From IMG/VR virus record IMGVR_UViG_3300020121_000165, positions 1 to 42,713 of that record: a stretch of 42,713 bases of DNA. One strand, given 5' to 3'. The stretch is from a virus. Shown piece after piece: positions 1 through 42,586 of the stretch (its first letter is position 1; each line of letters opens with the position of its first letter). The notes beneath the pieces were generated by a model that was not told where the DNA came from, made no database searches, and saw only the letters and a list, made by a program, of their open reading frames with translations. A program made the translations under genes and the position numbers.

Positions 1-127
1 GATTCAGCAAAAAAGTTGTTGCGCGGCATAGATTTACCGTAGGATGCGCGGCAGGCAGGCTGGTTTTGGCCCAGGGAGGGGCCTGAATCGGTTGGCAACA
101 ACCCTCATCCAGCGCGCACAGACCCCC
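1..127. repeat. Terminal direct repeat, left copy (assembly overlap)
   Basis: The first 127 bases are identical to 42587-42713. The length equals a common assembler k-mer, so this is best read as the overlap of a circular contig rather than a biological end. It includes the start of the portal gene. The true genome would be 42,586 bp. Confidence 0.9.
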
Positions 128-2077
128 CGAGGACGCCTCGAACAGGACGTGAACATGGTCCTGGAGCGAAAGGCGCTCTCCGAGCAGCATTTTACGGGCA
201 TTCGGCGCGAATTTCCGCAGTTGTACGACCTCTACCGGGGCGTTTTGACCGGTCGATTCTCTCCGCACAAGAACAATGTCCACATTCCGCTCATTTTCTC
301 GACGATCCAGAGCGACGTGGCCCGGAAAACGAGCACGAGCTTCGGCGATTGGCCGATTGTGCGCTTCGTGGGCTATGACCCGGGCGATGCGGCGCTCTCG
401 AAGAAGCGCGAGGCCCTGATTTCGGCCCAGATGCGCGATTGTTCGAGCTTCAAGAAGGGCTACGACACGTTTCTGAGCGCGGACCTCTACGGAACGGCCG
501 TGATCCAGTACGGCTGGAATCATACCGAGGAGGACATGGAAGTCCTCGACGTCACGGTCCTCCCGCTGACCGGCCGGATCGTCGAGACGATGAAAAAGCA
601 GCGCACCGTGCTCTTCGACGGGCCGGATTGGAAGGTCTTGGACTGCCTCGACCTCTTTCCGCAGCCCTCGTTTCGCATGATCGATGACATGCAGTGGTTC
701 ATTACCCGCGAGTACATGGACCTGGATGATATACGGCTTCTCACGAAGCCCTCGATCTTTGGAAAGTCCGTCTTCGACTCCGATGAAGTGGATCGGATGG
801 AACGAGACGGTGCCGGTGCCTACACCGCTGGCGACGACTACAAGAACTGGCGCACCCAGGGCCGCACAATCTACGACAACGAGGCCCGGCTGCGCGAGAA
901 GTACGCACGCCCCATCGAGATCTTGCATATGTGGGGCAAAGTACCGAGCGAACTCGCCGACGATGGCGTGGTGAGCCGCGTCATTTCGATTGCGAACGGG
1001 CGCTACCGCTTACGTACCCGGCCGATTCCACTCTGGGGCGGGAAGAAGCCCTTCATGGCCTATTCCCCGATGCCCGACCCGCACTTCTTCTTCGCCGCCG
1101 GAAAGGCCGAGGTCGCAAAGAAGCTCCAGATCGTGGCGAACCGGTTCACGAATCAGCAGTTGGATGCGCTCGACATCTTCATCGACCCCGCCTTCTTCTA
1201 CAACACCCGCTCTGGACTCAACACGCGGAATCTCCTGATGAAGCCGGGGCGGTTCATTGGCTTGGATGGCGTCCCCGGGGAGTCGGTTCAGGCGGTGACG
1301 CCGAACTTCCAGGGCATGCAAATGGGCACGGGGATGACGGAACAGGTCTGGCGCTGGATGCAGCAGGGCAGTGGGATCGTGGAAGACACGGTACAGGGCG
1401 GTGGGGGCCAGCGCCAGACCGCACGGGAGTTTCTGGGGCGGTCTGAGGCCGTCGCGACCCGGCTCCTCATGGAGAGTCGGTTGTTCGAGGAAAGTTTCCT
1501 AGAACCCCTGGCAGACGCCTTCGTGGACCTCAATAGGCAGTTCCTGACGAAGCCCCGTGAGGTCTTCATCCTGGGGGACCGGGCGAACACAGATCCCGAC
1601 ACCGGGGAGCCCATTCCGACCGCGACCCGGCAGATGGTCTCGGGCTGGGACTTGGTGCCGAACTACGAGGCTCACGCCACGGGCGCGACGTCGGCGCTGA
1701 ACCGGGCGGGCCGCCAGCAGAACTTGACCTTCCTGATGCAGGCGGCGAGTGCCAATCCGATGGTCGCTTCGGCCGTCAACTGGATCGCCTTCTTCCGTCA
1801 GATCTTCCGCGAGTTCGAGATCGACAACGTGAACGAGTTACTCGCAAGCCCTGCCCAGCAGATGGCGATGCTCCAGCAGGCTCAGGGAGGCGCGCAGGCG
1901 CAGCAAGGCGCTGGTCCCGCGCAGATGGGACCGGGCCAAGGGCCGCCGCAAGGTGGGCCGGGCGACGTTGGCCCCTACCGAATGATGAAGCAAGAGCAGC
2001 GTGCGATCCCGGGGACGCCCGGTGGTGTCTTGGCTCCCGGGGAGCTTCCCGTTTACCCGGGGCAAGGGATCCAGTAG
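44..2077 (+). CDS. Portal protein
   Basis: A 677-residue protein of podovirus portal size that should form the dodecameric ring at the DNA-entry vertex. It lies just before a scaffold-like gene and the capsid gene, and after terminase once the genome is closed, which is the classic portal position. The middle is rich in charged and aromatic residues. Around residues 440-520 is a helical, Gln/Gly-rich stretch followed by a long helix (TAREFLGRSEAVATRLLMES), as in portal clip and stem regions. The last ~60 residues are Gln/Gly/Pro-rich and probably disordered. ATG 44 is the first start after an in-frame TAG at 29. No strong ribosome binding site precedes it. The family call rests on size, composition and context. 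Confidence 0.82.
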   Translation: MRGRQAGFGPGRGLNRLATTLIQRAQTPRGRLEQDVNMVLERKALSEQHFTGIRREFPQLYDLYRGVLTGRFSPHKNNVHIPLIFSTIQSDVARKTSTSFGDWPIVRFVGYDPGDAALSKKREALISAQMRDCSSFKKGYDTFLSADLYGTAVIQYGWNHTEEDMEVLDVTVLPLTGRIVETMKKQRTVLFDGPDWKVLDCLDLFPQPSFRMIDDMQWFITREYMDLDDIRLLTKPSIFGKSVFDSDEVDRMERDGAGAYTAGDDYKNWRTQGRTIYDNEARLREKYARPIEILHMWGKVPSELADDGVVSRVISIANGRYRLRTRPIPLWGGKKPFMAYSPMPDPHFFFAAGKAEVAKKLQIVANRFTNQQLDALDIFIDPAFFYNTRSGLNTRNLLMKPGRFIGLDGVPGESVQAVTPNFQGMQMGTGMTEQVWRWMQQGSGIVEDTVQGGGGQRQTAREFLGRSEAVATRLLMESRLFEESFLEPLADAFVDLNRQFLTKPREVFILGDRANTDPDTGEPIPTATRQMVSGWDLVPNYEAHATGATSALNRAGRQQNLTFLMQAASANPMVASAVNWIAFFRQIFREFEIDNVNELLASPAQQMAMLQQAQGGAQAQQGAGPAQMGPGQGPPQGGPGDVGPYRMMKQEQRAIPGTPGGVLAPGELPVYPGQGIQ

Positions 2078-2415
2078 TGGCGCTCTCTCCGGAACATGAG
2101 GCTCTTGCTTCGATGCTGATGAATCGAGCTTGGGAGGGACTTTACAAGGCGAAGATCGTCGAAGAGGTGCGTGGCCTCTACGCCCAGCTTGTCAATCCGA
2201 GCCAAGCCCGGAAGGACGCCGTCCCCGACGACTTCATTCGAGGACAGATCCAGGCACTGAAGTGGGCGATCGAGTGGCCCGATCAAGAAATGAATCGCGC
2301 AGTCCTGGAATCGGCCCAAGCCGACAAGGAAGAAGCCGAATTTCAGAAGGTAGTCCCACTCTTCGGTGGCGGGCATCCCGGACCGGGGAAGGAGACATTG
2401 AATGGCAACGGGTGA
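2077..2415 (+). CDS. Hypothetical protein between portal and scaffold
   Basis: 112 residues, mostly helical and charged, no motif recognised. The GTG start shares one base with the portal stop (TAGTG), and the 3' end overlaps the scaffold start by 14 bases, so translation is tightly coupled. In comparable phages this slot holds small head-assembly or adaptor proteins, but nothing in the sequence proves that role. The last residues are Gly/Pro-rich. Confidence 0.7.
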   Translation: MALSPEHEALASMLMNRAWEGLYKAKIVEEVRGLYAQLVNPSQARKDAVPDDFIRGQIQALKWAIEWPDQEMNRAVLESAQADKEEAEFQKVVPLFGGGHPGPGKETLNGNG

Positions 2416-3376
2416 CCAGAACGACGCCGTAGCCCTCGCGACGGAGCTTCTCTCTGCAATCGGGGACGAGGCTCTCGAAGGGACCGGTGGGGATCGCTAT
2501 CGGGCGGGGCAGCCGCTCTTGAACGATCCCTCCGCGCCTCCGGCCCAGCCGAAGGAAGACGGAAAGCCAGTGGAGCCGCCATCCGGCACACCGGCCGTAG
2601 AAGGGGCGGACGCACCGAGCAGTCCTCCTGCTCCTGCGAAGCCTGATCTCGTGTTCGGGCAGTACAAGAGTCTCGAAGAGGCAGAGCGTGGGCTCCACGA
2701 GACGCGGCGGTACGCACGCGAGGCGAAGGAAGAGGCAGCGTCGGCGCAGGCCGAACTCGCTCGCCTTCGCTCTCAGTTTGCGCCCCAGCGCCCGGAGTCG
2801 ACGACCAATCCCTTCGATGATCTCTCGGCGATTGGTGTTCCGAAGGAGCCCCTGGAGGCGGCCATGAGAGCCATTGTCCAGGAAACGATCCAGAAGACCT
2901 TTGGCCCCGCAGCCCAGCGCGTCCAGGCGGACCAGCAGATCCTGAAGGAGTTTCCCCAGTACGGGGAACGCTTCGAGGAGATGCAGCAGTTCGTCGAGAG
3001 CGTGCCGGATTTGAAGGCCAAGGTCGATCGGGCAGAGGCAGATGGTCAATATCTGCTCGCTCGCGAGGTCGCGTGGCTCAATTTTGAGCGCCAAATAGCC
3101 CAAACGCGTCAGGCCGAACTCGAAGCTCAGGGCCAGCAGCGTGTGGAGACGGCGCAGTCCAAGATGGCGGATGCGGCCGTGACGAAGCCTTCTCAGGCGA
3201 CGGCGCGGACGCAGAAGCAGTCGAAGGGCTCGCCGAACGATCTCCCGGACGAGGATTACCAGCGCCTTATCAATCTGGCGAAGTCTGGGCACTCCGCACC
3301 GCTTTGGCGCGAGACGATCGGGTGGGCTTTGGCACAACAGAATCCGGAAATGTTTGGTCCGGAGGGTGGGCCGTAA
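2402..3376 (+). CDS. Capsid scaffolding protein (putative)
   Basis: 324 residues, highly acidic. A Pro-rich N-terminal ~90 residues is followed by a coiled-coil-like segment (about 90-125, Ala/Glu/Arg rich) and further helices, and there is no cysteine-rich or enzymatic motif. This composition and the position between portal and major capsid fit a scaffold that directs procapsid assembly and then leaves the head. ATG 2402 is preceded by an AGGAGA site. No protease is recognised nearby, so the scaffold is probably not processed by a phage-encoded protease here. The assignment is by context and composition. Confidence 0.65.
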   Translation: MATGDQNDAVALATELLSAIGDEALEGTGGDRYRAGQPLLNDPSAPPAQPKEDGKPVEPPSGTPAVEGADAPSSPPAPAKPDLVFGQYKSLEEAERGLHETRRYAREAKEEAASAQAELARLRSQFAPQRPESTTNPFDDLSAIGVPKEPLEAAMRAIVQETIQKTFGPAAQRVQADQQILKEFPQYGERFEEMQQFVESVPDLKAKVDRAEADGQYLLAREVAWLNFERQIAQTRQAELEAQGQQRVETAQSKMADAAVTKPSQATARTQKQSKGSPNDLPDEDYQRLINLAKSGHSAPLWRETIGWALAQQNPEMFGPEGGP

Positions 3377-3402
3377 GCAAAAACTGAAAGGAAGAGCCAA
3401 GG

Positions 3403-5004
3403 ATGGCTGTTCCCGGCAATTTTGGGGTCTATGGGTTCGGCTTTCTCGCGGGAGCGGGAGCCAACCGAGAGGACCTGTTGGACCTGATTACGAACGTGGA
3501 CCCTTGGGATTAAACGACACAGGGATGGTCCCAAGTAAAGTTGGCAGCTATATGCGGGAACCCCGGCGTATCCGAGTGTACGAGCCCCAGGGCCGTGAAA
3601 ATCACGAGGTGCGGGCAATCCGCAGGAAAGACCAGGACAAGTGGAATCCTCAGAGACTCGTGCGCTGCCCAAGATTCGAGTTCGAGATGCCGCCTATCTC
3701 GCCGCAATGCTGGATGGCGAAGGGCACATCAGCGGAACAGACCGAGAGCGAAACGGTGTCGATGATTCCCAGCTTATCGTGGGGATCTCGAACTGTAGCG
3801 AGGTACTTCTCCAGTGGCTCGTAGAGAACTTCGGTGGGCGATGGCGATGGCGGGAGCCGCGTGTCTATGGGCGGCGACCTCACTTCGAGTGGTACCCACC
3901 GACGGAGCACCGGCGAGAGATCCTCAAAGCCGTTTTGCCACACATCAAGATCAAACGCGGCCAGTGTCTTCTTGCGATCGGCTTTTGCAATACGGTGAAC
4001 CAGCCCGGGCGAAGGCGAAAACTGATCCAGGCCATTCGGCGTTTGAACTCGGTTCCGAATCCGGAAGATACAGTCCAGCCCGGAGAGCGATCCCCGGAGA
4101 ACTGACCCCATGGGTAACGCAGGCCCCCAAGGTCCGCGCGACCCACGTCGTCCATGAGTGGCTGACCGATACGCTCGCTGCGACATCGACCTCGGGCGAG
4201 GTTGAGGGCGCGGACTGGAACATGACGGGCAACGTCTTCACATCGACGACCCGTCCGACGCGGATCCTGAACGTCACTCAGATCTTCCGTAAGGACATCG
4301 GTGTCTCTGAGACCCAGCGTGCGGTCAATCCCGCCGGGTTCAAGGATGCGTACGCCTACGAGGTCCAGAAGGCGACGAAGGAACTCGCCCGTAACCTCGA
4401 ATCGACGCTCTTCGTGACGGCCGGAGCCTCGGCCACGGGCGCGTCGGCTTCGGGTCGGCAGATGAAGACCTTCGCTTCCTTCCTCACCGCGACCGCGACG
4501 GGCTCGGGCCAGACCTCCTCGGCTCTCGCGACGACGACGGCCTCGGCGGGTGTGCTTACGCCGACGCTTTTCAACAATTGCCTGGAGCGTTGCTACTCGA
4601 ACGGTGGCAATCCCGAGCAGGTGTACGTGTCGCCCGGTGTGAAGCGCGTCATCTCGTCCTTCACGGCGACGAACCAGAACCGAAACATCGCGGCGGTCGA
4701 CAAGAAACTCGTCGCTGCGATGGATCTCTACGACACGGACTTCGGTCTCATTCAGATCGTGATGGATCGCTGGATTCCGCAGGCGACCAACACGGTCAAC
4801 ACGACCGCCGCGTCGGACATCCGTGGAAACATCTGGTTCCTGGAGCGCGCCAAGAACCGTCTCGCGTGGCTTCGCCCGATGCAGCACACGCTCGTCGGGA
4901 AGCGCGGCGATTCCGTCGCTGGAATGGTCGTCGGGGAATGCACGCTCGAAGTGCTGAACCCGCTTGCGGACTTCCAGGGCACGCAGGTGAACAACATCAG
5001 CTAG
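3403..5004 (+). CDS. Major capsid protein, split by a group I intron
   Basis: The gene is in two exons: 3403-3510 (36 codons, starting MAVPGNFG and ending NVDPWD) and 4105-5004 (299 codons, starting TPWVTQAPKV). The joined protein is 335 residues. The joined text reads as the conserved N-terminus of the SU10-like (DUF5309) HK97-fold capsid family: LLDLI, DPWDTPW, then HEWLTD and LEG-type motifs. Exon 1 alone stops at TAA, the first intron codon (3511-3513), so only spliced RNA gives a full protein. Exon 2 is in phase 0 with exon 1. Ribosome binding is by GGAAGAGCCAAGG upstream of ATG 3403. The insertion falls exactly in the conserved DPWD/TPW motif, a usual choice of homing elements. Confidence 0.88.
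3511..4104 (+). ncRNA. Group I self-splicing intron in the capsid gene
   Basis: A 594-nt intron with a recognisable core. P1: exon CTTGGGAT (3503-3510) pairs with the guide GGTCCCAAG (3527-3535), with the diagnostic U-G pair (3510/3528) at the 5' splice site. P element TGCGGGAA (3553-3560) and Q element AATCCGCAGG (3617-3626) form P4. P3 is GGCAGC (3543-3548) with GCTGCC (3664-3669). R element TCAGAGACT (3650-3658) and S element AAGATACAGTCC (4065-4076) form P7 by GACT/AGTC. A P9-like CCGG...CCGG hairpin follows, and the intron ends in G at 4104. P2 is minimal or absent. The endonuclease gene fills P8. Splicing itself is inferred from structure and from restoration of the capsid frame. Confidence 0.88.
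3641..4105 (+). CDS. LAGLIDADG homing endonuclease, intron-encoded
   Basis: 154 residues with one LAGLIDADG-type motif, YLAAMLDGEGHIS at about residues 19-31, so probably a homodimeric single-motif enzyme. It would cut intronless capsid alleles and drive copying of the intron. The GTG start at 3641 has AGGA just upstream and lies inside the ribozyme core, between Q and R. The C-terminus also reads through S and P9, and its TGA stop (4103-4105) uses the last two intron bases and the first exon 2 base. No full-length start lies further downstream. The coding sequence therefore shares nucleotides with essential RNA structure at both ends. A maturase role is possible but not shown. Confidence 0.85.
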   Translation: MESSETRALPKIRVRDAAYLAAMLDGEGHISGTDRERNGVDDSQLIVGISNCSEVLLQWLVENFGGRWRWREPRVYGRRPHFEWYPPTEHRREILKAVLPHIKIKRGQCLLAIGFCNTVNQPGRRRKLIQAIRRLNSVPNPEDTVQPGERSPEN

Positions 5005-7177: not shown

Positions 7178-8464
7178 GTGCCGATCACCAGGAAGGACAT
7201 CGCAAAACTGCCGGAGGATTTTGACCCGGGCTTTGGAGTCTACTCTCCGGATCCCGGGCAAGCCTCTGGCTGTAACTACTACCGGATCGAGGTGCCGTTC
7301 CGTGGGCTCCTGGATCTCGGCCTATCGCTTTACTTCATCGACAATGAGAAGCGGCGTCTCTCAAAAGACGATCGTGCGGCGATCATGCTATCGTCGGACA
7401 TCGTGCTCTTCTTTGCGCGTGGAGGTCATCAGGCGGACGTGAATCTGGAGACGATCCGGCAGATGTCGCCGGGCGTGATGGACAACGGCACGATCGGGTA
7501 CCCGCCGAGCGTCATCTTCGACATCGATGACAACCTGGATTGGGTTCATCCCTTCAACCACCGCTTCTCGGTCCTTGGTACGAGGGCCTACGACGGAACC
7601 CTCTTGAAGCCCGGGGACAGCCTGACGACCACATTCCCAGACGGGAGCGAGATTGTGGTCTGGAAGGATCAGGAGACGGTCATTGATGGTGACCGCTTCG
7701 TGGTGCAGGACAATCTCGATCGCATTGCGGCCATTCATCGCACGGCGCAGAACTGCGAAGGGGTGAGCGTCCCGAACGAGGAGTTGGCACGCTACTACCG
7801 AAACGTCCACCAGTGCGACAACGTGTATATCTTCCCGAACTCCATGATCCCCGAGGACTGGCCGCAAGTGGAACTCAAGCCGCGCACGGACGGATCGATC
7901 CGGATTCTCTGGCAGGGGGGCGGGAGCCATATGGTGGACTGGTTTCCGCTGCGCGATGCGGTCCGCACGATCTGCGAGAAGTATCCGCAGGTCAAGTTTG
8001 TGATCTGGGGATCGGCCTTCCGGTGGGTCCATGACAACATTCCAGAAGCGCAGTTGGAACTCCATGATTGGGTCGATTATCTCGCGTACCGTCCTCATCG
8101 AGTCCTTATGGACGCAGACATCAACCTCTGCCCCCTCGTGGACAACGTGTTCAACCGAGGGAAGAGCGCGATCAAGTGGTACGAGGGGGCGATCCTCAAG
8201 AAGCCCGAGCCCTGCCTCGCTGGCGCGTGCCCTCCGTACAGTAACGAAATCGTCGATGGCGAAACCGGCATGCTCTACAAGACTCCTCAAGAGTTTGTCG
8301 AGAAACTTTCGCTCTTGATCGAATCGGCGGAACTGCGCCGGAAGATCGGGGAGGCTGGAAAGATGTGGGTCCTCCAGAATCGCCACTTCCATCAGACGGT
8401 GCCTGGGCTCTTTGAGTTCTACCAGGAGATCCGGGCTCGTAAGGAAATGGCTCTGAGCGCCTGA
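7178..8464 (+). CDS. Glycosyltransferase, GT4-like (GT-B fold)
   Basis: 428 residues. The C-terminal half has GT-B hallmarks: IFPNSMIPEDW, SIRILWQGGGSHMVDW (start of the second Rossmann domain), VKFVIWG, LCPLVDNVFNRGKSAIKWYEGA (donor-binding loop with Lys and Glu), and EIVDGETGMLYKT before the terminal helices. It should move a sugar from an activated donor to an unknown acceptor. GTG 7178 has GGGAGG at 7166-7171; the longer upstream reading has no such site. It sits inside the virion operon between head and tail genes, so the acceptor could be a virion protein or the host surface. TGATG overlap links it to the adaptor gene. Confidence 0.82.
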   Translation: MPITRKDIAKLPEDFDPGFGVYSPDPGQASGCNYYRIEVPFRGLLDLGLSLYFIDNEKRRLSKDDRAAIMLSSDIVLFFARGGHQADVNLETIRQMSPGVMDNGTIGYPPSVIFDIDDNLDWVHPFNHRFSVLGTRAYDGTLLKPGDSLTTTFPDGSEIVVWKDQETVIDGDRFVVQDNLDRIAAIHRTAQNCEGVSVPNEELARYYRNVHQCDNVYIFPNSMIPEDWPQVELKPRTDGSIRILWQGGGSHMVDWFPLRDAVRTICEKYPQVKFVIWGSAFRWVHDNIPEAQLELHDWVDYLAYRPHRVLMDADINLCPLVDNVFNRGKSAIKWYEGAILKKPEPCLAGACPPYSNEIVDGETGMLYKTPQEFVEKLSLLIESAELRRKIGEAGKMWVLQNRHFHQTVPGLFEFYQEIRARKEMALSA

Positions 8465-9390
8465 TGTCGATCACATTCGCCAACGCCAAGATCTACGTCG
8501 CGCGTGCGCTCGGAGCCGAAGGCTCGACCACCCAGTTGGCTGCGGCTGCGGACGCGATCGCGGCTGCTATCGAGGAATGGAATCTGCGCCGCGACTGGCG
8601 TTGGCTTTTGATGGACACCCGCGATGGCTTCTCGGTCGCCAGTTGCACGATCGCGGGCGACGGGGTGAGCGTCTCGACGAGCACATCGAACGGGTTCGCG
8701 GGTGTGAATCAGGGCGTGGTCGTCACGGGTACGGGGATTCCCGCGAGTACGACGGTCTCGACCGCCGTTGCGCTCACGACGACCACGTTCACCCTTTCCG
8801 GGGCCGCTACGCCCGGCACCATCACGATGACATTCGCTGGGGATATTCCGGTGCGGGTCGGCATAGCGAAGTACAGCATGCCCACGCCCTTCAAGCGCCC
8901 CTACCGGGCACGGCTTTTGACGAACGAGCGCACCCTGGAGTGGAAGGATCAGTTCGAGATCGATGCCCTTTTTCAGAATCAGAGCCCAGGGTCGACCTCC
9001 GTCTACTACAACATCTTCAATCCCTCAAATTTCACGGTCGGAAGCCAGAACGGTGTGTTCTCGCTCTTCCCGACGCCTTCGCAGACGGATACAGCGCGAG
9101 TGCGGTACTACCGCCCGATCGGGCAGCCTGTGCAGACAACGGATCTCATCGACTCACCGGATCGATATGTGTATGCGCTCCTCGAAATGGCGCGTTACCA
9201 GTATCTGAAGAACCATGATTCGGAGATCTCGCGGCTCGATCAGACCCTTCAGAAGGCTGAGCAGCTTCTCTCGTACTGCATCGCGGATGACGAGGGCGAG
9301 ACATTGGATCGCAGTCCTGGACTGGTCGCCCAGGTGGACCATGGATTTGCCCGCCAGATCCTGAACGAAGACATCATCTGGGGGCCGTAA
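8464..9390 (+). CDS. Head-tail adaptor (tail tubular A-like), with inserted beta domain
   Basis: 308 residues. N- and C-terminal parts resemble the T7 gp11/SU10-type adaptor that sits under the portal: an N-terminal helical pair (FANAKIYVARALGAEG... AAIEEWNLRRDWRWLL), then a beta segment with YRARLLTNERTLEWKDQFEIDALFQ, and a long C-terminal helix (LIDSPDRYVYALLEMARYQY). Residues about 60-120 form a Ser/Thr/Gly-rich insert (VTGTGIPASTTVS, then FTLSGAATPGT) that looks like a small beta domain and is absent from simple adaptors. It ends immediately before the next ATG (TAAATG). Confidence 0.75.
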   Translation: MSITFANAKIYVARALGAEGSTTQLAAAADAIAAAIEEWNLRRDWRWLLMDTRDGFSVASCTIAGDGVSVSTSTSNGFAGVNQGVVVTGTGIPASTTVSTAVALTTTTFTLSGAATPGTITMTFAGDIPVRVGIAKYSMPTPFKRPYRARLLTNERTLEWKDQFEIDALFQNQSPGSTSVYYNIFNPSNFTVGSQNGVFSLFPTPSQTDTARVRYYRPIGQPVQTTDLIDSPDRYVYALLEMARYQYLKNHDSEISRLDQTLQKAEQLLSYCIADDEGETLDRSPGLVAQVDHGFARQILNEDIIWGP

Positions 9391-25474: not shown

Positions 25475-26447
25475 CCCTGCTCCTATAGGCTGAACGTACG
25501 ACCGAATCGACCTCCCACCCATCCATAGGTGGGGTAGACAGCGCGGCCCCGAACCGGAGGGCTTCACGGGCCTCCTCCATGGAGATCCCGACCTCACAGA
25601 GCGAGGCCGCTGTCTTGAACGCCGAAGTGTTGCGATCTCCGTACGACGCACCGCGTTGCAGAAAGAAACGTGCTGAAAGCGTGAGGTGGGTGAAGGCGTG
25701 CTGCCAGTCTCCCTGTAGATTCGCTATGGATCCTTGGGGTTCTCGGATTCTTTCACCGAGTCGAAGAATCGATCCACTAATCCCAGGTCGGGGGGATCCG
25801 TAAGAGAGAACGTCGCATCGGCGACCGGTCTTTTGATTGATGCTTCCGACCGCGCGCCCGACTCGGGGGAGATCACAAGTGGCGGTATCCACATGGAGAC
25901 CGTATGCCGTGAAGAGGGACCGCTTCCTAAGTAAGCGGAGGAATACACCAACTCCATCCCTCCACCTGCGACGTACCGTTTCGTCAGGAAGTGGGGTTGG
26001 TTCAACGGGAATCCAAGCCTGGATACCTCTTCCGGAGTCAAGGATATGCGGATCGATTTGGACTCCAAGGAGATCTGTGCCATGGGCTACCAAAACCTCA
26101 CGTATGTCCAACTGCGCCAACTGGCGTAGTCGCGAAGGTGGTAGGCAAGCACCCGAGTCCTCGCCCGGATCGCCCGGATCCAGATCGAGTAAGATACCGG
26201 TTGCATGAACAATCGCATCACTGGACGGGCGTCCTGCCGGGCATTTGCCTCGTCCCTCTGCATCCAGGCTTCCCATCTGGACCTGGTTGATTCCGAAGTA
26301 AAGCGACCACCTTCGGAAGAAGCTCTGAAGCCGCTGATACTCACGATCGGATTCAATCGGCCCCCCTGTGACTGTTCCGGATGGACTGATCGCAAGGTAG
26401 TGGGAGGCCGTGCCCTCCGGATGGGCGACGAGTTCCCAGGAACTCAA
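25374..26447 (-). CDS. AEP-superfamily primase (prim-pol-like)
   Basis: 357 residues. Archaeo-eukaryotic primase marks: ILLDLDPGD (Asp88/Asp90 metal site), DSGRGIQAW at 137-145 (motif II, with Gln where His is usual), and LPRVGRAVGSINQKTGRR at about 193-210 (motif III region). Residues ~270-322 (DRNTSAFKTAASLCEVGIS to VDSVVRSAYRS) are a PriCT-like helical domain. No helicase domain is attached. TTG 26447 overlaps the upstream TGA (TTGA). It would make primers, and perhaps extend them, in a genome with no recognised DNA polymerase. Confidence 0.75.
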   Translation of the reverse strand: MSSWELVAHPEGTASHYLAISPSGTVTGGPIESDREYQRLQSFFRRWSLYFGINQVQMGSLDAEGRGKCPAGRPSSDAIVHATGILLDLDPGDPGEDSGACLPPSRLRQLAQLDIREVLVAHGTDLLGVQIDPHILDSGRGIQAWIPVEPTPLPDETVRRRWRDGVGVFLRLLRKRSLFTAYGLHVDTATCDLPRVGRAVGSINQKTGRRCDVLSYGSPRPGISGSILRLGERIREPQGSIANLQGDWQHAFTHLTLSARFFLQRGASYGDRNTSAFKTAASLCEVGISMEEAREALRFGAALSTPPMDGWEVDSVVRSAYRSRDGSTRRNGHTDARKDPDLWGPENRQNQTCHSSS

Positions 26448-27523
26448 CTAACGGCAATGCGTAACGAAGAAGCCCACTTCTCCAGGGCACCCATGATCGC
26501 TCGCAGGTCAGATTGGGTCAGCCACCAGCCGCAGGGTACGGCCACGTAAGCGGGATCATAGAGCCCGAGTCCCAGCGGTGGCGAGAGCCATCTTCCCGAC
26601 TGAAATCCTGGGTGAACATCGTTCCTCATGTGGACCAGGGAAGTCTCAATTCCCTTGGCGGCCATGTAGGACTGAAATTCTGCCCGCGCCGGGGTCTGGA
26701 TGAAGCAGACCCAGTAATCTCCTCCTGGAGAGCCTCGCAGGGGCTTCTGAAGCGATTCTGTGATGCGAGTCCCATTGATTCGGTGATCATCGCGATGCCA
26801 CTGGGCCATGCTGAGGTTCGACATCCCGATCGCAGCCGAGATGTCATTCATGTGGTACTTAAAGCCAAGTTCTTCAACGCGTTGGGAGCATCGGAAGGAC
26901 TCTGAAGAACGGCGATCAAGCCCGAACCACCGCAGGAGGCGGGCTCGTTCGGTTGTTTCGTCGTCCGGACAGAGGATCATCCCGCCATCCCCAGTCGTCA
27001 GGAACTTGATCGCCTGGAAGCTCCAACACACGTAATCAGCTCCTGGACGCCAGCTTAGGGTGTGTGCCGCATCCAGGATGATCGGGATATGGGATGGGAG
27101 AACGGCTCGAATGGCCGACAGGTCCACGGGAGCCCCACCCCAATCCACGACCATCACGGCCCGCGTCCGCTCCGTGACACTCGCGCGAATGGCACTCGGC
27201 TCTGCCAGCCCCGTACTTGAATCCACGTCCGCCCAGACCGGGCTCGCCCCCCGGTGGATGATGTGGATGTTCGTGGCTGTGCAGGTGAGCGGGACCGTAA
27301 TCACCTCGTCTCCCGCCTGAACTCCCGCAAGGTGGAGTGCCAGATCGAGGGCCGAGGTACCGCTATTGACCGTGATGGGGCGGCGGGGTAGCTCCAGCGC
27401 CCTTTGAAGTTCTTCCTCGAACTCTTCTACCACGGGACCTTGCCCGATGTATCCGCTGCCCAAGACTTCCCCGACCACTTCTTTTGCGTGTGGCGACATC
27501 CCTACCTTGAACAGGCGGATCAT
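26444..27523 (-). CDS. DegT/DnrJ/EryC1-family PLP aminotransferase
   Basis: 359 residues, normal family length. VNSGTSALDLALH at 52-64 (phosphate loop), IILDAAHTL (Asp151 to the pyridine N), and FQAIKFLTTGDGGM with Lys173 as the PLP Schiff-base residue; the N-terminus GSGYIGQGPVVEEFEEEL is the usual family opening. It would aminate a nucleotide-linked keto sugar. It is downstream of a GT2-GNAT fusion and tRNA-Cys on the same strand, which suggests amination, acetylation and transfer of one sugar. It lies next to replication genes, so it may be an imported cassette. Confidence 0.87.
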   Translation of the reverse strand: MIRLFKVGMSPHAKEVVGEVLGSGYIGQGPVVEEFEEELQRALELPRRPITVNSGTSALDLALHLAGVQAGDEVITVPLTCTATNIHIIHRGASPVWADVDSSTGLAEPSAIRASVTERTRAVMVVDWGGAPVDLSAIRAVLPSHIPIILDAAHTLSWRPGADYVCWSFQAIKFLTTGDGGMILCPDDETTERARLLRWFGLDRRSSESFRCSQRVEELGFKYHMNDISAAIGMSNLSMAQWHRDDHRINGTRITESLQKPLRGSPGGDYWVCFIQTPARAEFQSYMAAKGIETSLVHMRNDVHPGFQSGRWLSPPLGLGLYDPAYVAVPCGWWLTQSDLRAIMGALEKWASSLRIAVS

Positions 27524-27556
27524 CCTTGATCCCCTTTCCCCAACCCATCACCTTAG

Positions 27557-27630
27557 AGGCGGCACCAGGATTTGAACCTGGGTAAACGGCTTTGCAGGCC
27601 GTCGCCTCATCCAGCCTCGGCCATACCGCC
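27557..27630 (-). tRNA. tRNA-Cys (GCA)
   Basis: 74 nt with a complete cloverleaf: acceptor GGCGGTA/TGCCGCC, D stem GCC/GGC, anticodon stem ACGGC/GCCGT with loop CTGCAAA (anticodon GCA), 4-nt variable loop and T arm CCAGG-TTCAAAT-CCTGG. The discriminator is U73, the known identity base for cysteine tRNA. CCA is not encoded. The 5' end touches the stop codon of the GT2-GNAT gene with no gap, so it is probably processed from the leftward transcript. Confidence 0.95.
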
Positions 27631-34246: not shown

Positions 34247-34678
34247 CTAGGCGTTATCGCCCTTGAAACGCTGAACCTGCCAATCCGTGCGCTGGGGTTC
34301 CCACTTGTCGTCCTTGATCTGTCGGGCCGCCATAGCGATGGCACTCGACCGACCATTGGCCACGACATCGACCTTGATGATCTGTCGAGCCACCTTGCCG
34401 CCCTGGGACTCCAGCAACGTCGGCCGCTCAATCGCAACGACCGTGTAGACGCTGGCCCTAGTCTCCTCGCACATGGTGTTCTCTCCTTCTGCGCGCTGTG
34501 CGCGCGGGTTCGGTGCCGGACTATCCGGCACCATTTCTTCCCACCACAAAGCCTCAAATACCTGCCCACAGACCGGACACTCGGAGTCGCACGCGCAATC
34601 CCATTCGTCTTCCCATTCCACGTCACATTCCGGGCACTCGTAGAAGATTCGATACCAAGGTGGTGGCTTGCGAATCAT
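34247..34678 (-). CDS. Zinc-ribbon protein
   Basis: 143 residues. CPEC at 15-18 and CPVC at 34-37, with CAC between, form a zinc ribbon in an acidic/Trp-rich setting. The second half (VVAIERPTLLESQGGKVARQ to KDDKWEPQRTDWQVQRF) looks like a separate small domain. ATG 34678 overlaps the amidotransferase stop (ATGA), so the two are co-translated. It may be an accessory of the amidoligase system. Confidence 0.65.
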   Translation of the reverse strand: MIRKPPPWYRIFYECPECDVEWEDEWDCACDSECPVCGQVFEALWWEEMVPDSPAPNPRAQRAEGENTMCEETRASVYTVVAIERPTLLESQGGKVARQIIKVDVVANGRSSAIAMAARQIKDDKWEPQRTDWQVQRFKGDNA

Positions 34679-35664
34679 TCCGGATACCCTTCCTTCTCCA
34701 TTTCCTGGACGAGCCCGTCTACGATCTTCTGCGCCTCAGACGGGCCATTGGATGCCGCCGGGAGCGTTGGCGATTCGTTGCACTTGTGGCCGTTCCCGTT
34801 CACAGGCGGCACGTCCTTATCCCGGTCGGGCCAATCCCGAGAGTCGTATCCGCTCTCGTAGACCTTGATTCCCTGCTGCCCGAGCCCGTAGCCATATCCC
34901 CGATGCTTGGAGTAATCCTCCACCTTGGTGCTCTTTCCCTTGGTCGCGTATTCGGCCAGTGCAGGCCCGTAAGCCTTCTCGTGGTAGACGCCCGTCGCTG
35001 ACACCTTGCAGAGCGCCCGATGCGGCACCGATTCCGCCTTCGTTCCTAGCTGGATGTAGGCAATGGAGCGCACGGCGGCAAGTAACTGCTCCTCGGTCGA
35101 CGCGAACACGGTGAACGTATTCCCGGCTCCCGTGATGGTGCAGTATTCGAGCGGATTCCCGTCCCGAATGAGATACATGCGCTTCCCGTACACGAACGCG
35201 AGCGCCGTAGAACCGAAGGCTTGCCACATGAAGCGGGTCATCGCCTTTGGGCCATACTTCTCCACGAATGAATGTGCCAGTTCCGAATCGACCCCGGACG
35301 GATTCAGCAGTTCAAAATCCGTGCGTAGCTTGTAATGATTCGTGAAGACGCCATTGTGAACGAGTACGGCTTTCTCGCCGTGAAACGGTTGCGCTCCATC
35401 GTCCAATCGACTCCCGCACGTCGGCTGTCGTGTATGCACGAGCGCCATCGTCGCGGGCTTGGCGACTTGATGGAACGATGCGTCTTGAATGAAGGCAATC
35501 GGCTCCATCGCCCGCTTGTAGACGTATCCGCCGGGGCCTTCGGCATTCGTCCAGATACCGGACGATTGCTTTCCTCGGGGCTGGCCGTAGTACAAGAGCG
35601 CGGCACACAATTCCGCCGTGTGCGGAAGAGGCTTTTGCGAGATAAATCCTGCGATGGAACACAT
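34675..35664 (-). CDS. Class II glutamine amidotransferase
   Basis: 329 residues. Cys2 in MCSIAGF is the N-terminal nucleophile of class II amidotransferases after Met removal. HTRQPT at 77-82, HNGVF at 103-107 and DSELA at 126-130 are the glutamine-binding and oxyanion motifs as in GlmS/PurF. The domain fills about residues 1-210; the rest is a charged, probably flexible tail. No synthase domain is attached, so ammonia from glutamine must be used by a partner. The partner is most likely the amidoligase just upstream, whose stop overlaps this start (TAATG). Confidence 0.85.
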   Translation of the reverse strand: MCSIAGFISQKPLPHTAELCAALLYYGQPRGKQSSGIWTNAEGPGGYVYKRAMEPIAFIQDASFHQVAKPATMALVHTRQPTCGSRLDDGAQPFHGEKAVLVHNGVFTNHYKLRTDFELLNPSGVDSELAHSFVEKYGPKAMTRFMWQAFGSTALAFVYGKRMYLIRDGNPLEYCTITGAGNTFTVFASTEEQLLAAVRSIAYIQLGTKAESVPHRALCKVSATGVYHEKAYGPALAEYATKGKSTKVEDYSKHRGYGYGLGQQGIKVYESGYDSRDWPDRDKDVPPVNGNGHKCNESPTLPAASNGPSEAQKIVDGLVQEMEKEGYPE

Positions 35665-36926
35665 TAGCTAGTTCCCCCGGTGCGACGATTGTCATGGAGC
35701 CATTGAAGCGGTGGTTCCGGACGGTCTGCTTCCAGGTTCGCCTGTTCTACCATCGCCTGCCGAATCCGTGGTGGTGGTGTGTCCTTGGCGAAATTGAAAT
35801 GCGCAAATTCTCGCGCTCGCTTCACGAGATAGCGCCGCAGATAGAGCGGCATGCGCAGCATTTGGAACAGTTCCACCAAGCGGGGGCGAGCGTAGTAGTT
35901 CCGCTTCGGCGGGGCTGGCGCATCCTGCCAAGCCTGGAAGGCGTACAAGAGAAAAAGCATCCAATTCCGGACCTTCTCCGGATTCAAGGTGCCGGGATGA
36001 AGTCTTACTTCGTACGTTTCCCACTTGCTCAAGGCCGCTACGTTCAGTGCGTAGTAGCGGTTGTCTTGTGGGATTTGACTGCGCGGCATGCAGAAGCGAT
36101 TCCCGTGACGGGAGACGGGAACAAACGAGAAGATCGTTTGCTCGAAGTAGCCCCACCACTTTAGGATAGCATCGCGCTGCGCGCTGGACATTACGCTCAT
36201 GTCCAAATGCACGTGGAAACCGCACGATGCGTTCACAAAGCCGTGATGCCGCCGGAATAGCAAGCAGACATCACGCACTAGTTCTAACGCCCGATCACCA
36301 CGCGCAGCATGCGATGCATATTCGTAGGCTTTGCCGCGCTGGGAGTGTTCGTTCTTGACAGAAGCGTCATGCTTCAAGACACCGTAAGGCGACATATCCA
36401 AATGCGTCGGCAGGCCGCCTGGAACGAGAAATTCCAGTTCAAAGCCGATCTTCCGTAGGAATGGATTCCGCGTGTATGTTGTGTCGTCGAGTACAATCGG
36501 AAGGCGAGAACGGCACCCACCACAAAGCGGTAATGGTCCTTCTCGGTCATGGCCACGCGGCAGTATTATCCGGACTTCACACCGGCGGCACCTGGTCATG
36601 TTGGCATTGCAGGCATCGCACCACCCACCATTCGCGTAGAAGATTTCGGAATGGATCAATGACCCACAATCGCCGCACGTTTTCATGTAGCGAGGCTTGC
36701 AAGCGGTACAAGCCCACAACTTCGCTTGGGGATCGCTGGCGAGCGTCCTGGGACCGGTGACATCATGCAGACTGCGCCGTAGGAAGGCTTGGTGGCAGCC
36801 ATGGCACGCCAAGAACGCAAGACGAAAATGCTCGAAGCAGTACCGCTTGCGGGAGCGCGGATTCTGCCAGTATGGCTCGCGTTCACATCGCGGCTTGATG
36901 CAACGAAACGTGGGATCGTTCGGCAT
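35664..36926 (-). CDS. Amidoligase (ATP-grasp-like COOH-NH2 ligase) with N-terminal zinc modules
   Basis: 420 residues. Residues 1-140 carry repeated CxxC pairs (41/44, 73/76, 84/87, 103/106, 113/116, 135/138), an array of zinc ribbons. Residues ~155-345 match the Amidoligase_2 family: IGFELEFLVPGG at 160-171, Asp187, AYEYASH at 200-206, GFHVHLDMS at 236-244, YFEQTIFSF at 260-268 and ETYEVRLHPGTLN. The family joins a carboxylate to an amine using ATP. The paired amidotransferase next door supplies ammonia. AGGAG precedes ATG 36926. The substrate may be a protein, peptide or cell-wall component. Confidence 0.83.
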   Translation of the reverse strand: MPNDPTFRCIKPRCEREPYWQNPRSRKRYCFEHFRLAFLACHGCHQAFLRRSLHDVTGPRTLASDPQAKLWACTACKPRYMKTCGDCGSLIHSEIFYANGGWCDACNANMTRCRRCEVRIILPRGHDREGPLPLCGGCRSRLPIVLDDTTYTRNPFLRKIGFELEFLVPGGLPTHLDMSPYGVLKHDASVKNEHSQRGKAYEYASHAARGDRALELVRDVCLLFRRHHGFVNASCGFHVHLDMSVMSSAQRDAILKWWGYFEQTIFSFVPVSRHGNRFCMPRSQIPQDNRYYALNVAALSKWETYEVRLHPGTLNPEKVRNWMLFLLYAFQAWQDAPAPPKRNYYARPRLVELFQMLRMPLYLRRYLVKRAREFAHFNFAKDTPPPRIRQAMVEQANLEADRPEPPLQWLHDNRRTGGTS

Positions 36927-36982
36927 TAGGATGCTCCTCTCATCCGAGCGGCATCCTTGCCGGGTTGTGGTGCAGGGGACAG

Positions 36983-37093
36983 CTAGTTACGGCGCGTGAG
37001 AATCCAAAGGCATATTCGGGATATTCCAATCACGAGTAGCACAAGCGCGATATGCGCCGCCGCGACAGAGAATGACCCGAATACCAGAATCAT
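36983..37093 (-). CDS. 36-residue membrane protein A
   Basis: MILVFGSFSVAAAHIALVLL and on to a basic end (TRRN): one membrane helix. ATG 37093 overlaps the upstream stop (ATGA). A second 36-residue membrane protein lies at 37322 with the same kind of overlap. It could be an inner-membrane peptide that changes host physiology. Confidence 0.6.
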   Translation of the reverse strand: MILVFGSFSVAAAHIALVLLVIGISRICLWILTRRN

Positions 37094-37320
37094 TCCGCTT
37101 CGCTCAGAAATTGCAGGATAGCGGCCCACTTCTCTGCTTGGTCTGCCGTGAGTACGTGATTCCTACACGGTCCTTCACGGAGAAACTTGGCCATATCCGC
37201 CAATTCCCGGAGCCACGCACGCGGTATCTCCCCTTCCAAGTAAGTCCGGCAGTCGCACATCCACGGTGCGTCGTGCCGATATGCGCATGACGGATCGTGT
37301 TGTTCCTGTTTGTCGCTCAT
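37090..37320 (-). CDS. Small Cys/His-containing hypothetical protein
   Basis: 76 residues: HDPSCAYRHDAPWMCDCRTY at about 7-26 may bind zinc, followed by helices (WLRELADMAKFLREG, EKWAAILQFLSE). ATG 37320 lies two bases after the upstream stop. No family recognised. Confidence 0.62.
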   Translation of the reverse strand: MSDKQEQHDPSCAYRHDAPWMCDCRTYLEGEIPRAWLRELADMAKFLREGPCRNHVLTADQAEKWAAILQFLSEAE

Positions 37321-37321
37321 G

Positions 37322-37432
37322 CTAGCTGGCAGACCGTGCATCGCTCGCTGCGTCTCGTATCGTGAATGCTGCCCACATCCCGATTAGAATCCCTAGTGCA
37401 AGGCCAATGGAAAAGTAGACCCAAATGCTCAT
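37322..37432 (-). CDS. 36-residue membrane protein B
   Basis: MSIWVYFSIGLALGILIGMW, then a charged tail IRDAASDARSAS. The glycines spaced in the helix (GLALGILIG) suit helix packing. ATG 37432 overlaps the upstream TGA. Same length as the gene at 36983 but no clear sequence identity. Confidence 0.6.
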   Translation of the reverse strand: MSIWVYFSIGLALGILIGMWAAFTIRDAASDARSAS

Positions 37433-37683
37433 GCTAGTTGGTAGACCGTGCATTGCTTGCCTTTCTGCTCGAAGTGAGCGAATCGCCGCGCGGAGACTTG
37501 GAACGTACCGTCCAGCTTGCGCAGTTTCTTATGTCGCCGTTTGAACGTGAGAATCGCATGCTCGATAACACGGATTTCCGCCGGGATGACTGCTTCGAGC
37601 AGACCGATACGCTCTCCCTTGCCGGTATAGAGCACTGGCCCGGCATCGGCGATACGGATTGTGTATTTGTCCAGAATCTTCAC
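37429..37683 (-). CDS. Small basic hypothetical protein
   Basis: 84 residues, beta-rich start (KILDKYTIRIADAGPVLYTGKG) and a Lys/Arg-rich second half (FKRRHKKLRKLDG). The GTG start overlaps the upstream TGA (GTGA), and its own stop overlaps the next ATG. Possibly nucleic-acid binding by charge. Confidence 0.6.
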   Translation of the reverse strand: MKILDKYTIRIADAGPVLYTGKGERIGLLEAVIPAEIRVIEHAILTFKRRHKKLRKLDGTFQVSARRFAHFEQKGKQCTVYQLA

Positions 37684-37853
37684 TTGCTAGGCTCCTGCTT
37701 CACGCGATACGCAAGAATGCTGCGAGGCTTCAGGGATACGATGGGAGCCGGGCGATAGCACACAAGGCGGCACGCGCACACCCCACGCTGTGGCCCCTCT
37801 GCTTCCTGCCACTCTTGGCCGCAGTCTTTGCATGTCCGAATGACCAGCTTCAT
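37680..37853 (-). CDS. Small zinc-finger-like protein
   Basis: 57 residues: CKDCGQEW and CACRLVCYRPAP give two Cys pairs for zinc. AAGGGA precedes ATG 37853; an in-frame ATG at 37922 would add 23 basic residues. It is coupled to the next gene by GTGA. Confidence 0.58.
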   Translation of the reverse strand: MKLVIRTCKDCGQEWQEAEGPQRGVCACRLVCYRPAPIVSLKPRSILAYRVKQEPSK

Positions 37854-38266
37854 GCGTCCCTTTCGTGTGCAGGTGCCGTTACGAGCGCGAGCCCGTCTGA
37901 GCCACTTTTCCGCCCGACCCATCCAACGATCTACCGGCGACCCGCGATCGTCGCTTGTGGGGCTCGCCAGATGCCTTCCGCGCGATTCTGGCGGGCGGGC
38001 CGATCTGCGACCCCGGCTGAGATGCGCGACCCGCTCGCGAGGTTCGGATTTTCTGCCCCTCGGACCGCATGAGAGGCCGTACAAGCCACGATCGGAGCCC
38101 GACCCATGCCGGACTACCGGTCCGGCCCGATCGTCGCCCTAAAGCCCGCTAATGCGGTCTGGCGGGCCTTGGAGCGAAAAGCCGGAACCCCGGAGCCGAT
38201 GGTCTGGCTTCCCGGGGTCCGATGCCGCTGCTCGCTTGCGCGACCTTGGCCGCGTCGCTGCGAGGC
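37854..38266. other. No confident gene
   Basis: This GC-rich stretch is open in several frames. The best minus-strand reading is 37931-38107 (58 codons, MGRAPIVACT...) with no clear ribosome site. A plus-strand reading from ATG 38106 has a GGAG site but runs antisense to the better-supported gene at 38267. The 11-base string ATGGGTCGGGC occurs twice on the minus strand, starting at 38107 and 37922. No terminator or RNA seen. Confidence 0.4.
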
Positions 38267-38407
38267 TTACGCGGAAATGGAGCGAATTGCAGATGCCACA
38301 AGGCGTTGCAGCGCGTCGCGTTCTTCCTGCTTGGCGCGCTCCTGTTCGGCGGGCGTCAAGAGCCAACCCGGACCGATTCTGAGACATAAAGGCTTGTCCT
38401 GGAACAC
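38267..38407 (-). CDS. 46-residue helical protein
   Basis: Starts GTG 38407 with AAAGGAG six bases upstream. It ends in an amphipathic charged helix, LLTPAEQERAKQEERDALQR, then LVASAIRSISA. The codon use and strong ribosome site support a real gene that a length cut-off would miss. Function unknown. Confidence 0.6.
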   Translation of the reverse strand: MFQDKPLCLRIGPGWLLTPAEQERAKQEERDALQRLVASAIRSISA

Positions 38408-38498
38408 GTTAGGCTCCTTTCGTTCCGATGCTACTGGGCCTCATCGGCTACCGCGTCACGGTAGGACCGGGGCATCCATGCGCCCGGTTTCGGCCTTG
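38408..38498 (-). promoter_or_regulatory. Leader with two hairpins
   Basis: On the minus strand CTACCG/CGGTAG and CCGATG/CATCGG form two stems just ahead of the ribosome site of the 46-residue gene. A seven-codon reading (MDAPVLP) also lies here. No U tract follows. The stems may set mRNA stability or translation. Confidence 0.4.
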
Positions 38499-38747
38499 CT
38501 AACTGTCGTAGCGGTAGACGGTTACGACCGCGAATAACCCGCCCGGCAAGGCAATGGGCCGGATCGCTTTGGCCACGATCCAGGTCTTGCCGGTCTCACT
38601 CTTGCCCAGCGTAACTGCCGGGTCAATCACGAGATGCACCTTGCCATCGGTTCCCATTTCCCCTCGCACGTTGCCTTGCGGTTTCTTCGCCTTTTCCGGC
38701 AGCGTGGTGACGGGAACGTCTGGCGTAACTTTCGCAGGATGCGGCAT
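38499..38747 (-). CDS. Hypothetical protein, first gene of the leftward unit
   Basis: 82 residues. A Lys/Pro-rich N-terminus (MPHPAKVTPDVPVTTLPEKA), then a beta-rich core: KVHLVIDPAVTLGKSETGKTWIVAK and GGLFAVVTVYRYDS. GAGAGAGAGG precedes ATG 38747. As first gene after the control region it is probably early expressed. No family recognised. Confidence 0.65.
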   Translation of the reverse strand: MPHPAKVTPDVPVTTLPEKAKKPQGNVRGEMGTDGKVHLVIDPAVTLGKSETGKTWIVAKAIRPIALPGGLFAVVTVYRYDS

Positions 38748-38961
38748 TCAGGGCCTCTCTCTCGCTTGCGTTGACCTAGCCGACCGGCCGATCCGGCCGA
38801 CGCCAGCCGACCCAACGCAACCCGCGTGCCGATCGCTAACTTGTTGCGCCGCAACACCGTGGCCAGATCGAGCCACCCAGTTTTGGGGCAAAAGGCCCGA
38901 TCTCGTGGGGCAAAAAGCCCGGCCGCTTCTCCGCTCCCACACTGCATTTTCCACTTTCCCC
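38748..38961. promoter_or_regulatory. Divergent control region with inverted repeats
   Basis: Contains an 8-bp inverted repeat TTGCGTTG (38766-38773) with CAACGCAA (38813-38820), enclosing four spaced (A/G)TCGGCY units on the minus strand; a 15-bp palindrome TGTTGCGCCGCAACA (38842-38856); and two hairpins of GGGC-A-rich-GCCC type at about 38880-38925. These look like protein-binding sites or leader structures for the leftward unit. No convincing minus-strand sigma70 promoter was found. Confidence 0.5.
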
Positions 38962-39001
38962 TTGACTATGCTCTTGAACCCATGTAGACTAACGACGTTA
39001 G
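38962..39001 (+). promoter_or_regulatory. Sigma70-like promoter overlapping a 13-bp palindrome
   Basis: -35 TTGACT (38962-38967), 17-base spacer, -10 TAGACT (38985-38990). The perfect palindrome CTAACG-A-CGTTAG covers 38989-39001, across the expected transcription start, so a repressor bound there would block it. It points toward the repeats and terminase genes. Confidence 0.6.
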
Positions 39002-39039
39002 GACGGGGCGAGCGAAGCGAGCCGGTGGCTTTACGTCTG

Positions 39040-39300
39040 GCTCTAGCCTGAGACTATAGCCTAACTAGTGCAGCCTCAGCCTATTACGCTACTACTCCCA
39101 GTCTCAGCCTCACGTAGCCGCCTATAGTCTCAGCCTATAGTCTCACACTGCTCCGTGAGGGTAAGTGCTATAGCCTCAGCCTGTTACTACCAGCCTATAG
39201 CCTCTCAGTCTCAGTCTCAGTCTCAGTCTCAGTCTCAGTCTGTAAGTACCAGTCATAACTACCAGTTACCAGTCTCCAAATACCAAACTGCTTGATAAGA
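39040..39300. repeat. AGYCT-type repeat cluster, possible origin or packaging site
   Basis: Dense degenerate repeats of CAGCCT/CAGTCT/CTATAGCCT, including six perfect tandem copies of CTCAGT at 39204-39239, then TACCAGT repeats to about 39310. AT content is higher than in flanking genes. It lies between a promoter and the small terminase gene. Such iteron-like arrays mark replication origins or pac sites. Confidence 0.7.
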
Positions 39301-39591
39301 AATTACCAGTCTTACTGGCTACTCCGTTGGAAGACATAGACTTACAGCCTCTCATGTCGCGTAATAGGCATTATGTCAACTACGGTAAGACTCCCTATCC
39401 CATTGTGGCGTAATGAGTACCGGCGTTCCATGCGTCAGATTGAAGCCTGGAGACGCTGCTCCCAGCCTCAGACTGGCCTGGAACGACCACCCCACGACCC
39501 CACCCGCGCTGAAACGGACGTTCTTTACCCCAGTCTCACCCCGGCACCAGTTTTGACTGTAGGCGGGGAGACTGGTACTGGGCCAAGCTCC

Positions 39592-39644
39592 GGGAGGGGT
39601 GGTAGGGTGGGGGGTGGGGGTGGTAGTAGGCGGGGGAGGGGGAA
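39592..39644 (+). other. G-rich tract, G-quadruplex prone, at the terminase ribosome site
   Basis: Many runs of three to six G separated by one or two bases, ending in GGGGGAGGGGGAAGCG before ATG 39648. Several runs could form a quadruplex in mRNA or DNA and hide or expose the ribosome binding site of the small terminase gene. From 39302 to 39591 I see no convincing gene; an ORF from ATG 39373 is low-complexity. Confidence 0.6.
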
Positions 39645-39647
39645 GCG

Positions 39648-40154
39648 ATGCCGCACGTGAAGCGGGGGTATGGGCTGGCATGGGCGCAGAAGCAGCGGCG
39701 GGAGGAGATTGAGGCTTACATCCTGGAGCAGCAGGCGGCGGGGCAGATGCCGACGGCGCAGGAGATTGCGGATCGGTTTGACGTGAGTCGGGTGTTGGTG
39801 AGCACCATACGGGGGCGGATGGTGCGAGCGGGGAAGATTTTGAGGCCGCCGCGGAGTCCGGAGGCGTTGGAGAGGACGCAGCGGGAGGCGCGGAAGTTGG
39901 TGGAGAAGATGTCGACGGTGGGGAGTGGAGTGCCTATGACGGTGGAGGAGCGGAGGAGTTTCTTATCGGATTTGGCAAGAGTAGAGCCGAGGGCGGATGT
40001 GAAGGTGCAGGCGTTGAGTGCGTTGGATAGATTGGAGGGGCGGTTAGGGCAGATGCAGGTGGTGGGGCATGGGCCGCCGTTGAGTCGGGAGGAAGCGTGG
40101 GGGCGGGTGGAGGCGGTGAATGAGGCGTACCGGCGGCTCTTCGGAAAAGATTGA
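39648..40154 (+). CDS. terS: Small terminase subunit
   Basis: 168 residues. A helix-turn-helix at about 35-60 (PTAQEIADRFDVSRVLVSTI) would bind the packaging site, followed by a helical oligomerisation region (ERRSFLSDLARVEPRADVKVQALSALDRLEG). It is directly ahead of the large terminase gene and overlaps it by 35 bases. The G-rich leader carries the ribosome site. The repeats upstream are a candidate recognition site. Confidence 0.75.
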   Translation: MPHVKRGYGLAWAQKQRREEIEAYILEQQAAGQMPTAQEIADRFDVSRVLVSTIRGRMVRAGKILRPPRSPEALERTQREARKLVEKMSTVGSGVPMTVEERRSFLSDLARVEPRADVKVQALSALDRLEGRLGQMQVVGHGPPLSREEAWGRVEAVNEAYRRLFGKD

Positions 40155-42553: not shown

Positions 42554-42586
42554 GGGATAGGGCTTGGATGCCCATCCGATAGGGCA
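42554..42586. promoter_or_regulatory. Divergent junction upstream of portal (joins to 1-43)
   Basis: In the closed genome this and bases 1-43 separate the minus-strand cassette from the portal gene. TTGTTGCGC at 16-24 matches half of the palindrome at 38842-38856, a possible shared operator. No convincing -35/-10 pair was found. Confidence 0.35.

Follow-up and report, generated by a model that had tools for sequence, protein, structure and literature searches.

Capsid genes are an established home for phage group I introns. In the mycobacteriophage LittleE (Cluster J), a group I-type intron interrupts the major capsid gene; reverse transcription PCR together with N-terminal sequencing showed that it is spliced, with efficient splicing reported during late expression, and a capsid intron of the lactococcal phage Tuc2009 is cited in the same report (PMC3706429). 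The element considered here lies in IMG/VR record IMGVR_UViG_3300020121_000165, whose 42,713 bp (positions 1 to 42,713) are called the window below. We are highly confident that the SU10-type major capsid protein gene of this phage is split between residues D36 and T37 by a mobile group I intron, and this is a known kind of element in a known kind of place (PMC3706429). Like the intron of LittleE, it sits in the major capsid gene, follows a U at its 5' site, ends in G and holds a LAGLIDADG-like open reading frame. However, the LittleE intron spans 820 bp, carries its reading frame on the opposite strand and belongs to a siphovirus of mycobacteria, whereas that of the window measures 594 nt, has a same-strand reading frame overlapping the core and splits an SU10-type capsid gene. 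An earlier note on this DNA had proposed a capsid-gene group I intron, which stands, but its list of phage genes known to harbour such introns was incomplete, as the LittleE and Tuc2009 cases were already known. The split gene has three parts:

3403 to 3510, plus strand: major capsid protein exon 1, 36 codons ending in ...NVDPWD, last base U; N-terminus as in intact relatives
3511 to 4104, plus strand: group I intron, 594 nt (frame join, Rfam alignment, comparison of 11 introns, our own covariance model)
4105 to 5004, plus strand: major capsid protein exon 2 (SU10_MCP; Pfam 4e-61 for exon 2 alone)

Translation that reads through from exon 1 into the insert meets a TAA directly after position 3510. 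When 3511-4104 is removed and 3510 is joined to 4105, an unbroken frame of 335 amino acids results (...ITNVDPWD/TPWVTQAPK...), whose product matches SU10_MCP (PF17236) with an expectation value (E) of 2.6e-67 over profile positions 8-284 of 292. The immediate stop, the exact continuation of the frame and the capsid identity of the joined product are thus as the earlier note had described them, although its placement of the insertion at the most conserved motif of the protein was too strong. The site is a conserved motif, and conservation of RLAWLRPM, close to the C-terminus, is equal or higher.

A first IMG/VR scan yielded 29 related capsid loci and a second one 69; in 65 of these 69 the codons flanking the junction (...NVDPWD/TPWVTQAPK...) are contiguous. 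The insert, together with exon 1 and the sequence up to window position 4124, recurs in a second IMG/VR contig (L034) at 99.96-99.98% identity, so an assembly accident can be set aside. Another phage (L012) has a homologous intron at this site, with 349 of 536 aligned bases identical to those of the window's intron. None of the seven related intron-bearing contigs that were searched turned out to have an additional, intact copy of the SU10_MCP gene. An intein is ruled out by in-frame stops within the insert, and a programmed frameshift by insert lengths that differ modulo 3 between relatives.

The structural elements of the intron are placed as follows, all on the plus strand and, unless another source is named, by comparison of the 11 introns:

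3506 to 3510, plus: P1 exon strand GGGAU, with U.G at the splice site
3528 to 3532, plus: P1 guide strand GUCCC (also from the sequence itself)
3543 to 3548, plus: P3 5' strand GGCAGC (also our own model)
3553 to 3557, plus: P4 5' strand UGCGG (also our own model)
3620 to 3624, plus: P4 3' strand CCGCA (also our own model)
3647 to 3658, plus: R element and P7 5' strand UCCUCAGAGACU (Rfam alignment, our own model)
3664 to 3669, plus: P3 3' strand GCUGCC (also our own model)
3673 to 3678, plus: P8 5' strand GAUUCG
4056 to 4061, plus: P8 3' strand CGAAUC
4064 to 4075, plus: S element and P7 3' strand GAAGAUACAGUC (Rfam alignment)

At the 5' splice site the terminal U of exon 1 pairs with a guide G (GGGAU with GUCCC), and at the 3' splice site the intron ends with the G at 4104. 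Both signatures, already reported in the earlier note, are present in 11 of the 11 introns compared. Across these introns the strands pair at 65/65 positions in P1, 66/66 in P3, 54/55 in P4 and 55/55 in P8; none of 10,000 re-deals equalled the P3 result, P8 too is among the helices that covary, and in the window itself pairing is perfect in P1, P3, P4 and P8. A core alignment of seven members that excludes the window has 96.6% of its cells paired and 10 pairs changed on both sides, with covariation in P3, P4 and P5. This pairing was reached by 0 of 500 shuffles and collapses when the alignment is slid. A covariance model of seven related introns, again with the window excluded and independent of the motif spotting in the earlier note, places the core of the window's intron at 3539-3671 (93.9 bits, E 1.5e-21). 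P7 is nearly invariant in this intron family and therefore offers no evidence either way.

Several observations weigh against this assignment. The Rfam group I model RF00028 aligns end to end (3502-4097) at 19 bits, below its gathering threshold of 50, with E values of 0.027 in one search and 3e-4 in another. With RF00028, the introns that interrupt this gene in relatives reach 28.3-47.5 bits. The P10 pairing of the window is weak (about CCC with GGG and a bulge), its fifth P7 pair is C.C, and Pfam alone gives no match for the protein encoded within the intron. Searching the whole window with Rfam, at the gathering threshold or relaxed, listed only a tRNA, and for this reason short regions and our own model were needed.

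The intron-encoded protein had been missed in the earlier note, and it makes the element a mobile one in its anatomy:

3641 to 4105, plus strand: homing endonuclease gene, 154 amino acids, LAGLIDADG (open reading frame, profile, predicted fold)

This reading frame opens with a GTG within P6, the R element encoding its initial residues (MESSET), and continues across the loop of P8 and the 3' part of the core to a TGA that straddles the 3' splice site, the last base of the stop belonging to exon 2. The protein has one LAGLIDADG motif, LAAMLDGEGHI, with the expected catalytic acidic residue; D25, E27 and G28 of the motif are invariant among six homologues. Despite the blank Pfam result, the family is settled by the profile of the six-member alignment, which matches I-MsoI at 1.6e-21 and also I-CreI, and by a predicted model (predicted local distance difference test score, pLDDT, 84) that matches I-MsoI/I-CreI with a Foldseek E of 2.8e-7. 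Judged by profile and predicted fold, 3641-4105 is a single-motif LAGLIDADG endonuclease of the I-MsoI/I-CreI type. Those enzymes come from algal chloroplast rRNA introns and share with the window protein the single motif, a length of about 150 amino acids, the profile and the fold. In contrast, the window endonuclease lies in a phage protein gene, and identity is about 20%.

We propose that the intron RNA would pair the last exon bases with its internal guide to form P1 and fold a group I core (P3-P9), after which two guanosine-started transesterifications would excise the intron and rejoin the capsid frame. The product of the P8-loop reading frame, expected to work as a homodimer, should cleave capsid genes without the intron in co-infecting relatives, and repair would then copy the intron in. 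Sequence shows the boundaries, the empty sites, the covariation of the core, and the family and predicted fold of the endonuclease, while splicing activity, cutting, homing and efficiency are putative. If the proposal is correct, production of the shell protein hinges on correct splicing by a selfish ribozyme. Standard annotation of the window would give a truncated capsid.

It seems appropriate to ask whether the intron might instead be kept as a regulator whose slow splicing postpones capsid synthesis until late infection, as the earlier note had suggested. Only the location in a late structural gene speaks for such a role, which we regard as very improbable given that the sequence carries no regulatory sign, 65 of the 69 close relatives lack the intron, the endonuclease alone is enough to account for its spread, and the LittleE capsid intron is reported to splice efficiently during late expression (PMC3706429). 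Slightly less probable still is that the contig carries a dead capsid gene, either through an assembly artefact or through an intron that has decayed and no longer splices, since the low Rfam score and weak P10 that would fit this reading are opposed by the near-identical insert in the second contig, the perfectly paired P1, P3, P4 and P8 strands, the open endonuclease frame and 127-bp repeated ends of the kind expected for a complete genome.

These repeated ends (window 1-127 identical to 42587-42713) were read via contig L034, whose matches to window 35371-42713 and to 1-4124 overlap by 127 bp. The capsid gene lies in an SU10-like head module of portal, capsid and adaptor genes, its partners having been placed by profile search:

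44 to 2077: SU10-type portal
8464 to 9390: SU10-type adaptor

Elsewhere in the window, genes at 26447-27523 and 34678-36926 match aminotransferase, glutamine amidotransferase and amidoligase phage families, and a tRNA-Cys lies on the minus strand at 27556-27630.

Intron-like insertions, some of them full introns and others short core-less inserts (minis) discussed below, are spread over eight positions in a stretch of about 120 codons of SU10-type major capsid protein genes (window numbering):

Y10: L025 (full intron) and L012 (mini)
Y12: L032
D33/P34: L025 (mini)
W35: L026
D36/T37: the window, L034 and L012
W39: L025
W55: L033/L041, L046 and L049/L050 (all without a long open reading frame), and L040
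about residue 119: L027

At all eight positions the exon ends in U and the insert in G. When contigs were scanned for the pattern of the intron-core motif, independently of any capsid sequence, 21 matched, and in 12 of these the match lay in an SU10-type capsid gene. Capsid genes of several phage groups are recurrent group I intron targets, with eight positions in the SU10-type genes alone. Among the open-licence papers searched we found no published intron case for the SU10-type capsid family, and earlier descriptions are possible. No intron-bearing isolate appeared among the matches listed for isolated phages with related capsids (103 SU10-type and 25 second-type records), setting aside a few SU10-type matches that come in two pieces. 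As separate observations, one contig (L048) has several adjacent group I intron cores in a single 12.6-kb stretch (nine matches at E <= 0.05 with our own model), related introns with an HNH-like reading frame occur in another, apparently capsid-like gene (L031, L037 and L044), and members of the same intron family appear to sit in tRNA genes on phage contigs (L039 and L043).

The minis are inserts of 28-53 nt in three groups of major capsid protein genes. They have a 3' G and guides that pair perfectly in P1 and P10, their removal would restore the frame exactly, and they lack a core:

L012, 2306 to 2346 (= L065, 2806 to 2846): 41 nt; P1 GGUGUCU with GGACACC; P10 ACUUGU with ACAAGU
L025, 2349 to 2382: 34 nt; P1 CGUGGAU with GUCCACG; P10 CAAGG with CCUUG
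L123, 2722 to 2772: 51 nt at SMT/KQK, just upstream of a full intron; also in a second independent contig
L124, 2694 to 2735: 42 nt at SMT/KQK, just upstream of a full intron; also in a second independent contig
L180 and L189: 29 and 31 nt at FYG/TYV
25 loci within L201-L280 (for example L225 1765 to 1792, L224, L240, L268 and L279): inserts at FYG/TYV, second capsid family with a weak Phage_capsid_4 match
Example of a candidate joined junction: TTTTACGGT + ACCTATGT

In L012 and L025 the short inserts accompany full introns, and their positions are fixed by protein homology. The P1 of each is a perfect 7-bp helix with U.G at the junction, and immediately next to this P1 is a perfect P10 to exon 2. 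Both inserts have a terminal G, leave no room for a core of their own and lie a short distance 5' of a full group I intron. The window intron is of the same family as these full introns, and no mini was found in the window. A layout scan extended the minis to two further capsid gene groups (L123/L124 and L180/L189). Because a de novo scan (six Watson-Crick pairs in P1, five in P10) gave 8 real matches against a background of 2-4 per mock scan, only matches with homology-fixed boundaries were used. A pattern search for the 34-nt insert in its exact form gave no contig other than its own.

A search with the upstream exon of L189 provided a larger sample of 80 loci; at FYG/TYV, 55 of them are contiguous and the other 25 have an insert of 28-53 nt. 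All 25 inserts end in G and hold GUGCCGUA, which pairs with UACGGU. Each of the 21 distinct inserts also matches the third, synonymous base of the next exon's Thr codon (codon/guide ACC/GGU 13, ACU/AGU 3, ACA/UGU 3, ACG/CGU 2), and their P10 totals exceed all 300 re-deals and their tail-to-exon-2 helix all 200. One insert (L226) recurs in a separately assembled contig of a metagenome-assembled genome (L282). A large insert is present in the same gene in 21/21 cases with a mini against 25/50 without (Fisher p = 1.8e-5, among sequences related to one another), an association that co-conversion with a nearby homing intron could give without any dependence. Covarying group I P7 R/S motifs lie downstream in 15/21 mini-bearing genes against 0/28 intact loci, and the large inserts of this second family are mostly unmatched by Rfam or our own model. 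Separately, a 4-nt insertion at SLR/QTED near position 1850 breaks the capsid frame in L208, L233 and L270 (probably also L268 and L269). Its ATG (TATG in L233) would restart the second capsid part in frame; these loci also have large downstream inserts, and relatives have large introns about that codon.

A possible explanation, to which we give slightly less than an even chance, is that the minis are non-autonomous group I introns cut down to their guide (P1, P10 and tail helix) and excised by the core of the downstream full intron in the same gene. Borrowed-core splicing would explain the U.G pair, the terminal G, the P10 and the company of full introns. Alternatively, the minis might splice autonomously, by analogy with a 67-nt intron of Phialophora (PMC3160393). 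We consider it improbable that ribosomes bypass them as they do the T4 gene 60 insert (PMC5009743): the size range, the 5' hairpin at the junction and the nearby homing endonucleases are shared, but landing and take-off codons differ (GGT versus AAG, ATG, TAG, TTG or CCG; GAT versus TAG; ACT versus TTG), the L012 insert splits a codon (GTC T/AC), every insert ends in G and uses the U.G pair, and base pairing between insert and exon 2 covaries at a synonymous base.

If borrowed-core or autonomous splicing does occur, the minis would be the smallest group I-type introns known to us, the smallest one shown to be active in the literature covered here being 67 nt (PMC3160393), and would raise the question of whether an intron without its own ribozyme can persist by using that of a neighbour. 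The minis look new in phages, and two described systems come closest. The T4 gene 60 insert, a bypassed 50-nt segment beside a homing endonuclease that has been proposed to be a degenerate group I intron (PMC5009743), is likewise a short non-coding insert in a phage gene, whereas P10 covariation sets the phage minis apart. The small group I introns of Phialophora (63-75 nt, with splicing reported for the one of 67 nt) resemble them in having a P1 with G.U, a P10, a helix between mid-intron and 3' exon, and most of the core absent. However, the Phialophora introns reside in fungal rRNA, end in U and have an assigned P7 (PMC3160393), whereas the phage minis, 28-53 nt long, have a terminal G and are found in capsid genes, on the upstream side of a large intron.
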